A stretch of DNA of 64,000 nucleotides, taken from Pseudomonas syringae CC1557 (lineage in GTDB: Bacteria > Pseudomonadota > Gammaproteobacteria > Pseudomonadales > Pseudomonadaceae). Shown here in pieces: positions 4,480 to 53,738 of this stretch; position 1 is the first letter of the stretch; each line of letters starts with the position of its first letter. Under the pieces are notes generated by a model. The model did no database searches, had not been told where the DNA came from, and saw nothing but the letters and a program-made list of their open reading frames with translations. The stretch covers positions 1,550,001-1,614,000 of the forward strand of contig NZ_CP007014.1 in assembly GCF_000452705.1 (NCBI RefSeq), read 5' to 3'. The position numbers and the translations under genes are program-made.

Positions 4480-4640
4480 CGCCGCACCGCACCTTCAAAG
4501 TCGGACGCAGAGCGTGGGGACGAGAGTCATCGTGGTCTGGGCCCCGTTTTCCGGGCTTTGATTCTCGTGCCAATGCTCCGCGTTGGCATGCATTGGGTGA
4601 CGCTTCGCGTCACAACCCTGCGCCGCACCGCATGCTCAAG
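4480..4640. repeat. REP-like palindromic intergenic repeat
   Basis: The spacer between the rhodanese and binding-protein genes carries short perfect hairpins: GCCAATGCTCCGCGTTGGC near 4569-4587 and GTGACGCTTCGCGTCAC near 4597-4613. The same GACGC-NNN-GCGTC hairpin theme recurs near 11350-12420, 21650-21760 and 47060-47200. No gene is seen here. Confidence 0.7.
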
Positions 4641-10584: not shown

Positions 10585-10923
10585 TTAGAAAGCTACCTTG
10601 CCCAACAGCATGTCACGGTACATGACGAAGTCACCGAGCAGGCTGTAGAACGGATGCTTGAACGTGGCCGGCCGGTTTTTCTCGAAAAAGAAATGCCCGG
10701 CCCAGGCGAAACCGTAGCCCGCGACAGGCACCAGCCACAACAACCCCCAGCGACCACTGCCCACACCGAACGCCAACAGAAAAATCACCAGCGACGTGCC
10801 GACAAAATGCAGGCGTCGACTGGTGCTGCTGCTGTGTTCGGCAAGATAGAACGGATAAAACTCGGCAAAGCTTGAGAAACGCTTGATGGTATCCACAGTG
10901 CGTACCCTCAGGTTGGTTCTCAT
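10585..10923 (-). CDS. DUF962 / Mpo1-like membrane protein
   Basis: About 112 residues with the DUF962 pattern: FAEFYPFYLAEH with its conserved His, RRLHFVGTSLVI, two hydrophobic helices and GHFFFEKNRPATFKHP. The yeast relative Mpo1 is an iron-dependent dioxygenase of fatty-acid alpha-oxidation, and the conserved histidines are present here, but the bacterial role is untested. The start is uncertain; an ATG at 10950 would add nine residues. It is likely an inner-membrane protein. Its promoter side faces the long repeat array. Confidence 0.75.
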   Translation of the reverse strand: MRTNLRVRTVDTIKRFSSFAEFYPFYLAEHSSSTSRRLHFVGTSLVIFLLAFGVGSGRWGLLWLVPVAGYGFAWAGHFFFEKNRPATFKHPFYSLLGDFVMYRDMLLGKVAF

Positions 10924-11116
10924 GGTTATACACAAGTCCTGATGAGCCACAAAATACAGCTATGACTCGTGCCCACTTCGTGAACATGCATTCGTGATGC
11001 GCTTCCTCACGCAGCAGCAATACTTCATGCGTCGCTTGCAAATAAACGCTGCCATAAGAGTCTCTTCGATCACGATGTCACTGACGACGCAGAGTGCGAC
11101 GTAAGTGACGGCTGAG

Positions 11117-11213
11117 TCCTGACACTGATCCGGGGGTAGCCTGGCAGGACGCCAGGCTAGCCGCACCGGGCCATGGATGGCCCGTTGCGGCGACCCCCGG
11201 ATCAGTGTCAGGA
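11117..11213. repeat. Three-way-junction palindrome, copy A
   Basis: A perfect 21-base-pair outer stem (11117-11137 with 11193-11213) encloses two further perfect hairpins. One is TAGCCTGGC/GCCAGGCTA (11137-11159). The other is a GCCGCA/TGCGGC base (11160-11165, 11186-11191) topped by CGGGCCAT/ATGGCCCG (11167-11184). Either strand folds into the same shape. Confidence 0.9.
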
Positions 11214-11576
11214 CGAAGGAACCCGACGAAGTCGGGCCGGAAACGGAGCCAGGGGATTTGGTTACTTTGGCCCCATCAAAGTAACTCGCCGAGGGGCGAA
11301 AAGGTGCGTCGAGCCGTAAACAAACATCACTGACATCGCAGAACCGCTGTGTGACGCAGAGCGTCACGAACTGCATACCGACGCGGAGCGTCGGCACGAT
11401 AGTCAAAAGGTGCGTCGATCCGTAAACAAACATCACTGACATCACAGAACCACTGTGTGACGCAGAGCGTCACGAACTGCGTATCGACGCGAAGCGTCGG
11501 CACGATAGTCAAAAGAAAGCGCTTTTTTATCACGATGTCACTGACGACGCAGAGTGCGACGTAAGTGACGGCTGAG

Positions 11577-11673
11577 TCCTGACACTGATCCGGGGGTAGC
11601 CTGGCAGGACGCCAGGCTAGCCGCACCGGGCCATGGATGGCCCGTTGCGGCGACCCCCGGATCAGTGTCAGGA
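11577..11673. repeat. Three-way-junction palindrome, copy B
   Basis: Same sequence and pairing as copy A, 460 bases further on. No mismatch is seen in the stems. Confidence 0.9.
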
Positions 11674-11929
11674 CGAAGGAACCCGACGAAGTCGGGCCGG
11701 AAACGGAGCCAGGGGTTTTGGTTACTTTGGCCCATCAAAGTAACTCGCCGAGGGGCGAAAAGGGGCGTCGAGCCGTAAACAAACATCACTGACATCGCAG
11801 AACCACTGTGTGACGCGGAGCGTCACGAACTGCATACCGACGCGGAGCGTCGGCACGATAGTCAAAAGAAAGCGCTTTTTTATCACGATGCCACTGACGA
11901 CGCAGAGTGCGACGTAAGTGACGGCTGAG

Positions 11930-12026
11930 ACCTGACACTGATCCGGGGGTAGCCTGGCAGGACGCCAGGCTAGCCGCACCGGGCCATGGATGGCCCGTTG
12001 CGGCGACTCCCGGATCAGTGTCAGGA
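11930..12026. repeat. Three-way-junction palindrome, copy C
   Basis: Same architecture as copies A and B, with two changes in the outer stem (first base A instead of T, and ACTCCCGG instead of ACCCCCGG). A right half only of a fourth copy begins at about 12216, joined directly to the preceding small-hairpin unit. Confidence 0.88.
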
Positions 12027-12484
12027 CGAAGGAACCCGACGAAGTCGGGCCGGAAACGGAGCCAGGGGTTTTGGTTACTTTGGCCCCATCAAAGTAACTC
12101 GCCGAGGGGCGAAAAGGTGTCTCGAGCCGTAAACAAACATCACTGACATCGCAGAACCGCTGTGTGACGCGGAGCGTCACGAACTGCATACCGACGCGGA
12201 GCGTCGGCACGATAGCGACCCCCGGATCAGTGTCAGGACGAAGGAACCCGACGAAGTCGGGCCGGAAACGGAGCCAGGGGTTTTGGTTACTTTGGCCCCA
12301 TCAAAGTAACTCGCCGAGGGGCGAAAAGGTGACCTGAGTCAAACGCCATTCTACCTGACATCACAGAACCGCTGTGTGACGCAGAGCGTCACGAACTGCG
12401 TATCGACGCGAAGCGTCGGCACGATAGTCATCTCGTTGCCAACTGGTAGTCAGACGTGTGTGTAACGATGAGCGCTGCCCGCTC

Positions 12485-13939
12485 TCAATGCCGCCAGAAC
12501 GCCGGTACGCACAGCACCAGCACAGTAATGATCTCCAGACGGCCAAGCAGCATGCCGCCGGACAGAATCCACTTGGCTGCATCCGGCAGGGTCGAAAAAT
12601 TGCCTGCCGGACCAATGACTTCGCCCAGCCCCGGTCCTACGCCGGAGACCGTGCTGGCCGCGCCGGTCAGGGCTGTCATCCAGTCCAGCCCGAGCAACGA
12701 CAGCATCAGCGCGATCAGACAGATAGTAATGGTGAAGAAAAACGAAAAGGTCAGAATCGAACGAACGATTTCGTCGTCCAGTCGATGGCCATTGTATTTC
12801 TGTTTCATCACCGCACGCGGGTGGATCAGTTGATTGAGGTTGGTCTTGAGCAGGATGTAGGCCACCTGAAAGCGGAAGATCTTCACCCCGCCTGCCGTCG
12901 AGCCGGAACAGCCGCCGATGAACCCCAGATAGAAGAACAGCATCAGCGAGAAATTGCCCCACAGGCTGTAGTCGCCGAGTGCAAAGCCGGTGGTTGTCAC
13001 CACCGACGTGACGTTCAACGCCACATGGCGCAATGCCTCAGTCCACGGCAGATCGGTGGTGTTGGCGTACCAGACGGTCATCACCAGCCAGGTAATCAAC
13101 AACAAGCCGATCAGCCCCTGCACCTGCTCATCCTTGATCAGCGCCTTGCGGTTGCCGCGCAGGGTGGCAACGTACAGCGTGAAGGGCAGGCTGCCGAGGA
13201 TCATTACCACGATGGCCACCCAGTGCACCGCAGGCTGCGGCCATTTGGCCAGCGACAGATCGGACGTAGAGAAACCACCGGTGGAAATGGCTGACATCGC
13301 GTGGTTGATCGCGTCGAACAGGCTCATGCCCGCCGCCCAGAAGGCCAGGCTGCCCAATGCGGTAAAGCCGACATAAGCCAGCACGATGAACTTGGCCACC
13401 ATATGCGAGCGCGGCATAACCTTTTCCGAACGGTCGGAGGATTCGGTCTGAAACAGGCGCATGCCGCCAATGCGCAGTAACGGCAGAATCGCCACCGCCA
13501 TGCCGATAAAACCGATCCCGCCCAGCCAGTGCAGCATCGAGCGCCAGATCAGAATGCCCGGCGACATGCTGTCCAGATGGCTGAGCACAGTGGAACCGGT
13601 CGCGGTAATGCCTGACATGCTCTCGAAAAACGAGTCGGTGTAGCTGATGTGCTGGGTCAGCAGAAAGGGCAGGGCAGCGAAGATGCACACCACGATCCAG
13701 CTGGAAACCGTGAGCATGTACATGTCGCGAGGTCGCAACTGGACGTTATCGGGACGTCCGGGCACCACCAGCGCCAGACCGGCAATAAAAGTGATGACGC
13801 TGGCCCACAGGAACGAGCGCAGATCCTCGAAGCGGTCGTAGATGACCAGTGTCGCCATGGGCACAGTCATCGCGACCGCCAGAGTGATCAGGAAGATGCC
13901 GATGATGAAACCGATGATGCGAAAGGTCGGCAACGACAT
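12485..13939 (-). CDS. trkH: Trk-type potassium uptake protein TrkH
   Basis: A 484-residue inner-membrane protein with the four pore-loop repeats of TrkH/KtrB transporters. It imports K+ with the cytosolic regulator TrkA, whose gene is not here. Selectivity-filter regions are visible: MSGITATGSTVL, MSAISTGGFSTSD, NVTSVVTTTGFALGDY and STVSGVGPGLGEVI. About ten or more hydrophobic segments run the full length. It is transcribed toward the repeat array, which therefore lies in its 3' flank. No neighbour suggests an operon. Confidence 0.95.
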   Translation of the reverse strand: MSLPTFRIIGFIIGIFLITLAVAMTVPMATLVIYDRFEDLRSFLWASVITFIAGLALVVPGRPDNVQLRPRDMYMLTVSSWIVVCIFAALPFLLTQHISYTDSFFESMSGITATGSTVLSHLDSMSPGILIWRSMLHWLGGIGFIGMAVAILPLLRIGGMRLFQTESSDRSEKVMPRSHMVAKFIVLAYVGFTALGSLAFWAAGMSLFDAINHAMSAISTGGFSTSDLSLAKWPQPAVHWVAIVVMILGSLPFTLYVATLRGNRKALIKDEQVQGLIGLLLITWLVMTVWYANTTDLPWTEALRHVALNVTSVVTTTGFALGDYSLWGNFSLMLFFYLGFIGGCSGSTAGGVKIFRFQVAYILLKTNLNQLIHPRAVMKQKYNGHRLDDEIVRSILTFSFFFTITICLIALMLSLLGLDWMTALTGAASTVSGVGPGLGEVIGPAGNFSTLPDAAKWILSGGMLLGRLEIITVLVLCVPAFWRH

Positions 13940-21644: not shown

Positions 21645-21765
21645 TATCGCTCCCACGCTCTGCGTGGTAGCGCTTTTCTGGACGCTCTGCGTCCTCTTGA
21701 CGACGCGGAGCGTCGAGAACTGCATTCCCACGTTGAAGCGTGCGGAACGATATCCTCTGCAATGC
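21645..21765. repeat. REP-like palindromic repeat cluster
   Basis: Successive small hairpins follow scpB: CCCACGCTCTGCGTGG-type (near 21653), GGACGCTCTGCGTCC (21679-21693) and CGACGCGGAGCGTCG (21699-21713). The block TGCATTCCCACGTTGAAGCGTGCGGAACGA-type tail recurs near 47083. No gene here. Confidence 0.75.
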
Positions 21766-47059: not shown

Positions 47060-47225
47060 AGAGCGGACGCGGAGCGTCCAGAACGGCATTCCCACGCTGC
47101 AGCGTGCGGAACGAGAATCTCAACTATCGTGCGACGCTCCGCGTCGGCATGCCGTTCTGGACGCTCCGCGTCCTCTTTGCGACGCAGAGCGTCTAGAGCT
47201 ACGTTCTCACAGGAACGAGAGTCGT
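47060..47225. repeat. REP-like palindromic repeat cluster after aruE
   Basis: Small hairpins in series: GGACGCGGAGCGTCC (47064-47078), GCACGCTGCAGCGTGC-type, GCGACGCTCCGCGTCGGCATGCCG and GGACGCTCCGCGTCC (47158-47172). The block shares its TTCCCACGCTGCAGCGTGCGGAACGA-type body with the repeat after scpB. It separates the aru operon from convergent ribH2. Confidence 0.75.
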
Positions 47226-47773: not shown

Positions 47774-47907
47774 GTGTTCTGACTCCTGTTTATGAAAAAA
47801 ACAGGGCATTTGGATCGAAAGGGATTCAAGTCGCGTAGGAAAGCCTCCTGAACGATGTCGTTCATGATGAGGTTTTGCAGACGTTCTTGCAGACACCAAT
47901 CCCGCTC

Positions 47908-48064
47908 TCTCTTCATCCGGACTATGACCGTCGGCCCCGGAATCACACCGGGTCTGCTGACCTTGCAGATCGCCCGCCAAAGCTGCGACCTGCAAGCGCT
48001 CGCGGGCTAGACACATTGCGCGCCATTACCGCCGGTGGGGAGTTGCACCCCGCCCTGAGAACGT
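47908..48064 (-). ncRNA. FMN riboswitch (RFN element)
   Basis: On the minus strand the conserved 5' block (CTCAGGGCGGGGTGCAA, CCCCACCGGCGGTAA) and 3' block (GACGGTCATAGTCCGGATG, GAAGAGAGA) of the RFN element are present with their connecting hairpins. It lies about 135 bases upstream of ribH2. Downstream, CCTGTTT can pair with AAACAGG, covering part of the ribosome site AGGAG, so control may be at translation. Confidence 0.95.
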
Positions 48065-48278
48065 TGCCGTCACTTTACGTGGCCGGCGGGGGATTTTTAT
48101 CACAGATCAATCAATCATGCATGGACACTTTCGTACGGTACACCTACCTTTTTCATCTAAGGAAACAGCGTATCGGCAGTCGTAGCGCTTGATTATCATG
48201 TATGCCGGCTCAAGTAATGCCTTGTTGCAAGCCAAAGGTTGCATGCATTATCGATTTTCAATTTCAGGGAGCTTTTTC

Positions 48279-53549: not shown

Positions 53550-53738
53550 ATGCTGATTCTGACTCGTCGGTGCGCAGAGAGCCTGATCATCGGTGACGGT
53601 GAAATCACCGTGACAGTGCTTGGTGTGAAGGGTAATCAGGTGCGTATTGGTGTCAATGCGCCCAAGGAAGTCGCTGTCCATCGTGAAGAGATTTACCTGC
53701 GTATCAAGAAAGAGAAGGACGAAGAACCAAGCCATTAA
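53550..53738 (+). CDS. rsmA: Carbon storage regulator CsrA/RsmA
   Basis: A 62-residue RNA-binding dimer: [20 protein letters not shown] and [18 protein letters not shown] are the first and last strands that read GGA motifs in mRNA leaders. It represses secondary metabolism and virulence and is titrated by RsmX/Y/Z RNAs. AAGGAG precedes the ATG. Sits between lysC and tRNA-Ser, the standard location of the main gammaproteobacterial csrA copy. Confidence 0.97.

Follow-up and report, generated by a model that had tools for sequence, protein, structure and literature searches.

The window, the whole 64,000-nucleotide stretch of Pseudomonas syringae CC1557 DNA that was analysed, contains a repeat array lying between two genes of the minus strand, which encode an Mpo1-like protein and TrkH (Table 1). 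The array is built around three copies of a 97-nt palindrome, accompanied by a small upstream hairpin module, a downstream hairpin that by reading has similar counterparts 3' of the core in many other copies, and a 106-nt unit of mini-hairpins. Copy 1 folds as DNA into a 21-bp outer stem closing two hairpins, with an energy of -53.5 kcal/mol (z -11.9) that none of 200 shuffled sequences reached, and the RNA fold of this copy with its flanks (11062-11300) gives a z of -10.4. The original prediction described three such three-way junctions with perfect outer stems and two perfect inner hairpins each. All three are present and the outer stem is indeed perfect in copies 1 and 2, but copy 3 retains 19 pairs, with a terminal mismatch and one G-T, and within each arm of the second inner hairpin one base is left unpaired. 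The internal doubling of 106 bases was described correctly, the first two units being 94% alike. A right half of the palindrome is also present; its joint had been called precise. By reading, four half copies elsewhere differ in their junctions and a further copy has lost more, so that the half unit in the window is one among several deleted forms of the palindrome. A reading of the reverse-strand open reading frames as a DUF1534-like protein was considered and rejected, with no Pfam family matched at E 0.01 by the two frames scanned; the word DUF1534 was absent from the open-access literature searched.

Table 1. Positions of the array, its parts and the genes discussed, numbered within the window
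Feature	Position	Strand	Basis or remark
Whole array	about 10962-12430	.	Ends like degenerate terminal inverted repeats
Core copy 1, TwoAYGGAY three-way junction	11117-11213	+	RF01731, 57.3 bits; fold
Core copy 1, loops	AGGAC 11146-11150; AUGGAU 11173-11178	+	
Core copy 2	11577-11673	+	RF01731, 57.3 bits; loops 11606-11610, 11633-11638
Core copy 3	11930-12026	+	RF01731, 51.8 bits; loops 11959-11963, 11986-11991
Right-half remnant, outer-stem 3' arm without hairpins	12215-12255	+	Identical to the 131-nt query over its positions 91-131
Small upstream hairpin module	11077-11109	+	Fold; precedes each core; also in aligned own-genome copies
Downstream hairpin GTTACTTTG..CAAAGTAAC	11261-11285	+	Sequence
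Downstream hairpin, further occurrences	about 11721-11744, 12074-12098, 12286-12310		
106-nt mini-hairpin unit (GACGC/GCGTC)	11299-11404	+	Repeat family, 82-97% to first copy
106-nt unit, further copies	11405-11510, 11758-11863, 12112-12217, 12324-12429		
Left neighbour gene, Mpo1-like (PF06127)	10585-10950	-	
Right neighbour gene, TrkH (PF02386)	12485-13939	-	3' end faces array
CsrA/RsmA gene, putative trans binding partner	53550-53708	+	PF02599, 83.1 bits

All three copies score above the curated gathering cut-off of 43 bits for the Rfam family TwoAYGGAY (RF01731; Weinberg 2010) and share its architecture, an outer stem that bears a pair of GGA hairpins. By score and fold, the core of the array is a member of this family. 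Loop 2 of the window copies is exactly AUGGAU and loop 1, AGGAC, is one base short of the AYGGAY type; in some sibling copies of the same genome loop 1 is AUGGAU, AAGGAC or AAGGAU. Both GGA loops are borne by the plus strand. TwoAYGGAY belongs to Rfam clan CL00106, which holds the Csr/Rsm sponges. The twin A(N)GGAX loops and the Rfam match form the strongest signal at the locus, one that the original prediction missed in proposing transcription termination, mRNA protection or a replication-related role. The accessible text of the 2010 report gives the human gut, gammaproteobacteria and Clostridiales as the sources of TwoAYGGAY (PMC2864571), and Gardner et al. (2014) used motif models to predict its binding by CsrA, with validation described in the available part of that paper as still pending (PMC4333381). 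In the open-access literature, as far as its texts were accessible and with subscription journals outside the scope of the search, we found no description of TwoAYGGAY as a high-copy mobile intergenic repeat and no joint treatment of TwoAYGGAY, mobile repeats and RsmA.

Conservation of the fold is evident in an alignment of 22 Pseudomonas copies, comprising the window copy and 21 representatives less than 88% identical to one another; three REP-like or unrelated sequences and 12 from other genera, among 36 representatives, were left out. Over the 45 pairs of the three helices, 97.3% of cells pair and 31 pairs show double changes, and the covariation of 0.436 compares with 0.136 for shuffled and 0.025-0.081 for slid controls. 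Because these copies had been found by their structure and in turn served to derive it, a second set anchored by pattern on hairpin 2 only was used as well, in which 157 matches gave 130 analysable loci after 16 identical ones and 11 at edges had been set aside (four of the 130 look unrelated). An outer stem scoring at least 10 is found in 102 of these loci, compared with 4 of 130 with shuffled arms, and the 28 low-scoring loci include short-form, truncated and unrelated sites. Judged from these alignments, the structure of the core is under selection. A function as a DNA cruciform would yield the same stem covariation, and the element could be imagined as a selfish MITE- or REP-like element, working at the DNA level alone, whose cruciform is the substrate of a transposase or single-strand nuclease, whose loops are the recognition letters of that enzyme and whose RNA is irrelevant. 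The letters of the outer stem, however, vary widely with pairing kept, which argues against such an origin.

The loops follow a more specific rule. By script, 120 of the 130 loci have an upstream hairpin with 6 bp or more, and 113 of these hairpin-1 loops contain GGA (ATGGAT 44, AGGGAT 28, AGGAC 26, AAGGAT 10, AGGGAA 3 and two singles). With the 17 remaining loci read by eye, a GGA partner hairpin is seen at 124 of 125 readable related sites overall. Of these 17, six that are out of register, of short form or picked up through the other hairpin have GGA in the partner loop; at five others the GGA partner hairpin has fewer than 6 bp or a downstream position, one locus has an N within the hairpin, and one has lost hairpin 1. 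The loops of the fetched copies are AGGAC, AGGGAT, ATGGAT, AAGGAT, ATGGAC, AAGGAC, ACGGAT, AGGAT and a few others, so that GGA is kept across them, with any base or none at N and differing bases at X. The paired hairpin loops thus carry the A(N)GGAX sequence expected of a CsrA/RsmA-sequestering RNA. A(N)GGAX is given as the CsrA/RsmA recognition rule, with a lower affinity where N is missing, in the accessible text of PMC4005645; hairpin 1 in the window, an AGGAC pentaloop, is without N. That loop variation obeys a protein-RNA rule is a further point against a purely DNA-level element. A structure-defined search of both strands gave 243 distinct structures, 222 of them two-hairpin, of which 111 have GGA in both loops, 82 are the opposite strand and 29 are others. 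Exceptions to the rule are five copies with ACGAC or ACGAT as loop 2, which come from two genomes belonging to a single genus, and a Pseudomonas copy with an ATAGAT loop.

The palindrome is widely dispersed. A 131-nt query finds 44 BLAST places in the CC1557 genome, 20 of which cover at least 100 nt, the others being incomplete copies or matches of the palindrome to itself on the opposite strand; RF01731 has 20 matches there, all over the cut-off. RF01731 also matches 32 of 59 Pseudomonas genomes (CC1557 included; 30 over the cut-off), with at least 39 matches in the richest, and the genome of P. putida strain ASAD has 20 family matches, 17 over the cut-off. At class level, taking at most the nine best candidates per genome, 18 of 274 genomes have RF01731 matches, 14 over the cut-off. 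A model of the core (R1), built from an 11-row alignment (A5) with misregistered rows of three others (A2, A3 and A4) dropped, matches 63 of the 274 on at most the 22 best candidates per genome and rough E-values. The hairpin-anchored pattern occurs in at least 120 stretches of named records, mostly Pseudomonas and, among the matches listed, also Stutzerimonas, Pseudoxanthomonas, Luteimonas, a Woeseiaceae MAG and others, and it matches 21 viral contigs. Two records of a plasmid collection and one of a phage collection gave partial matches only. In other genera a short form of the core appears, by reading, without flanking modules, which again speaks against a purely DNA-level element. The mini-hairpins also occur on their own, as had been claimed. 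Allowing up to one mismatch, the window holds 18, against 0.8 expected by shuffling; ten lie inside the array, and matches outside it are at 4504, 4599, 21681-21714 and 47066-47193. Rfam finds no 97-nt core at 4504-4611, 21681-21714 or 47066-47193, and a 76-nt mini-hairpin query finds 53 places genome-wide, the array's own included.

Comparison of the orthologous site among relatives points to mobility. With the two left-hand genes as query, 373 of 398 Pseudomonas genomes gave a match, which in many cases covered only the first gene. Among the 19 best-matching loci of other genomes, trkH lies on the far side in 17 and a contig edge in two, and 14 of the 17 show no match to the core. The locus is almost empty in G329, with a 50-nt gap between the two gene matches, and short gaps holding hairpin remnants are found in two genomes (G374 and G472); G664 has a single unit of about 495 nt, G593, whose left genes are 96% identical, a rearranged array, and G606 a run of N. 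The occurrence of near-empty, single-copy and array states at one locus in relatives indicates that the element inserts and amplifies. Together with the genome-wide copies, this size variation upholds the earlier description of a composite, mobilised and amplified noncoding element: the palindrome is neither unique nor immobile, being present at many other sites in the genome and, as a unit, at the same locus in G593 and G664.

Both dispersal and insertion polymorphism, as sought for a MITE, were thus found. A complete copy in the same genome (3872800-3873364) has long terminal inverted repeats built of the mini-hairpin unit, with an alignment score of 141 against a maximum of 44 in 200 shuffles. 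Of the two other elements examined in this way, the G664 copy scores 72 (shuffle maximum 47) and the window array, whose ends are weaker, 51 (maximum 37 in 200 shuffles). The proposed MITE-like nature is consequently supported by the long terminal inverted repeats of two elements, the full-length copy in this genome and the copy of a relative, but no clear target duplication was seen at the complete own copy. These repeats, the presence and absence at one locus and the near-identical copies that coexist within one genome would all suit a purely DNA-level selfish element, as would the orientation of neighbouring elements: of 66 distinct pairs at most 900 nt apart, 56 are divergent (62 of 71 before de-duplication). 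With the loop rule, the free variation of the stem letters and the short core form set against it, we consider that account unlikely, though it carries appreciable weight. In one element elsewhere in the CC1557 genome (3622158-3622451), hairpin 2 is interrupted by some 158 nt of inserted sequence that has inverted repeats at its ends and is accompanied by a short GGCC-like duplication.

The element had also been likened to the REP/RAYT family, in which it would be moved by a REP-associated tyrosine transposase. It resembles REPs and REPINs in being palindromic, intergenic and amplified to high copy, REP-like sequences lie close to many other Pseudomonas copies, and GTAG stands directly 5' of hairpin 1 in the window copies. 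REPs are described in the accessible text of PMC2817692 as short palindromes, many of them GTAG-tagged, with RAYT genes between inverted REPs. The tag is not conserved here, however: GTAG occupies that position in 2 of 22 aligned copies and GTAA in 12 of 22. A transposase search within the Y1 family found a sole member in CC1557, with no such hairpin closer than about 1.2 kb, and no RAYT-type gene flanked by the element was found in that genome. A REP/RAYT origin is hence unsupported, with neither a RAYT gene between inverted copies nor a conserved GTAG tag, and strikes us as most improbable. Five loci of fluorescens-type genomes have REP-like sequences between two elements in divergent orientation, and GGATATGTAC-type motifs end both outer sides of these pairs.

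The position of the element relative to genes is strongly biased. Neighbours were called with a simple codon-usage caller at 107 single elements in other genomes, mostly of Pseudomonas with some from other genera and viral contigs, after 46 at edges and three duplicates had been set aside. None of the 107 lies inside a gene; 50 are convergent, 34 tandem and co-oriented with the GGA strand, 20 tandem and opposite, and three divergent. The background, made up of all gaps of 100 nt or more in these loci and counted without removing duplicates, comprises 27 convergent, 140 tandem and 72 divergent ones, which gives a convergent enrichment of p 2e-12 and a divergent depletion of p 3e-10. Seven of 16 distinct sites in CC1557 are convergent, five tandem co-oriented, three tandem opposite and one divergent. 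The tandem orientation bias is weak (34 versus 20, p 0.038; 39 versus 23, p 0.028, with the own copies added). The array in the window is a tandem-opposite site and, both neighbours being on the minus strand, read-through from trkH would give the strand without GGA loops. A scan of the array found no sigma-70-type promoter on the plus strand and one promoter-like site, on the minus strand, against 0.4 expected.

Such placement would also be expected of a 3'-end structural element, that is, a terminator, an RNase barrier or an insulator between convergent genes, in which the GGA loops are incidental. The array has more terminator-like sites than chance predicts (7 versus 1.8), and short copies lie, by reading, just 3' of terminator-like hairpins in several genomes. 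A Tail-repeat-Tail bias of Pseudomonas repeats was moreover seen by Silby et al. (2009), who ascribed it in the accessible text to a "least worst" location (PMC2718517). The terminator-like matches are nevertheless short-stemmed and outside the core, the core has no T-tract on its 3' side, and conservation of GGA in both loops would be left unexplained, so that a merely structural role seems to us clearly improbable. The P. fluorescens repeats of that study, R178, R200 and others, are like the element in being high-copy, intergenic and biased Tail-repeat-Tail (R200 is 320 bp long, with 47 copies in SBW25), and differ in that no CsrA link was found in the parts of the paper available (PMC2718517); compared by description, the element may equal one of these families. 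At seven loci of other genomes, short double-GGA hairpins, some of them in tandem, stand directly 3' of terminator-like hairpins; by unscored reading, a short form of the core takes this position at several loci of other gammaproteobacteria.

The explanation that we favour, with guarded confidence, is that the element is a non-autonomous mobile repeat whose RNA would show a two-hairpin RsmA site and act as a dispersed decoy when transcribed. The array would be a tandem expansion of this repeat, with the TwoAYGGAY RNA as its conserved core. Once the plus strand was transcribed, through read-through or from outside promoters, the long stem would present two A(N)GGAX-loop hairpins, which could fill both faces of one RsmA/CsrA dimer. 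Each copy might take RsmA off its mRNA targets as a 3'-end, dispersed counterpart of the RsmX/Y/Z sponges, and copies would persist at 3' ends, where harm is least. We infer transcription, RsmA binding, one-dimer occupancy, sponge-like working and any effect in the cell; the decoy reading is supported by predicted structure, covariation, the loop rule, dispersal, presence and absence at the locus and 3'-end placement. If it is true, transposition would rewire a global post-transcriptional regulator by dosage, and an Rfam family without assigned function would become the conserved core of a large mobile-repeat family with a testable one.

RsmX, RsmY and RsmZ, and likewise CsrB and CsrC, are single genes with their own promoters and under Gac control, whereas the element is dispersed, has two sites per copy and is enriched at 3' ends, and no promoter was seen for it. 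GGA-loop hairpins, generally paired according to the available text of PMC4333381, are common to both. What appears to be the closest precedent is RsmU of Xanthomonas, an RsmA-binding small RNA processed from the comEA 3' UTR (PMC7694677), with which the element would share RsmA binding by an RNA derived from an mRNA 3' end; RsmU has one locus and is not termed a repeat in the accessible parts of that paper. It bound RsmA in vitro even after all four predicted GGA motifs had been changed (PMC7694677), and since binding survives these changes, GGA loops alone do not settle binding. In P. putida KT2440, the available text on RAP-Seq (PMC7937890) reports that RsmA, RsmE and RsmI all bind RNA from regions at ISPpu8 transposase copies and from a "long palindromic region downstream PP_3547", which it lists as a putative site of ISPpu8 insertion, and places the comEA-like gene PP_1813 among the common Rsm targets. 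This Rsm-bound palindrome may be a TwoAYGGAY element, and the decoy reading may account for intergenic palindromes pulled down with Rsm proteins, which their authors left open. More broadly, one class of mobile repeats found across gammaproteobacteria could form a dispersed RsmA/CsrA decoy system, in which TwoAYGGAY and the palindromic Rsm-bound RNAs of P. putida would be identical, a generalisation that is possible but that we put forward with some doubt. Each insertion would then add a dimer-sized site at a 3' end, copy number would tune how much of the global regulator is free, and the regulator may act back on the element.

The CC1557 genome has four CsrA/RsmA genes, one of which lies in the window, about 41 kb from the array. 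Co-occurrence with csrA, which is present in 235 of the 274 class-level genomes, is not significant for either model: all 18 genomes with RF01731 matches have the gene (p 0.086), as do 56 of the 63 matched by the core model (p 0.54), and five of the seven core-model genomes without it are less than 90% complete. An element driven by RsmA would be expected to follow csrA; this result neither backs the RsmA reading nor rules it out. The window also contains an FMN riboswitch on the minus strand at 47900-48066 (104 bits).
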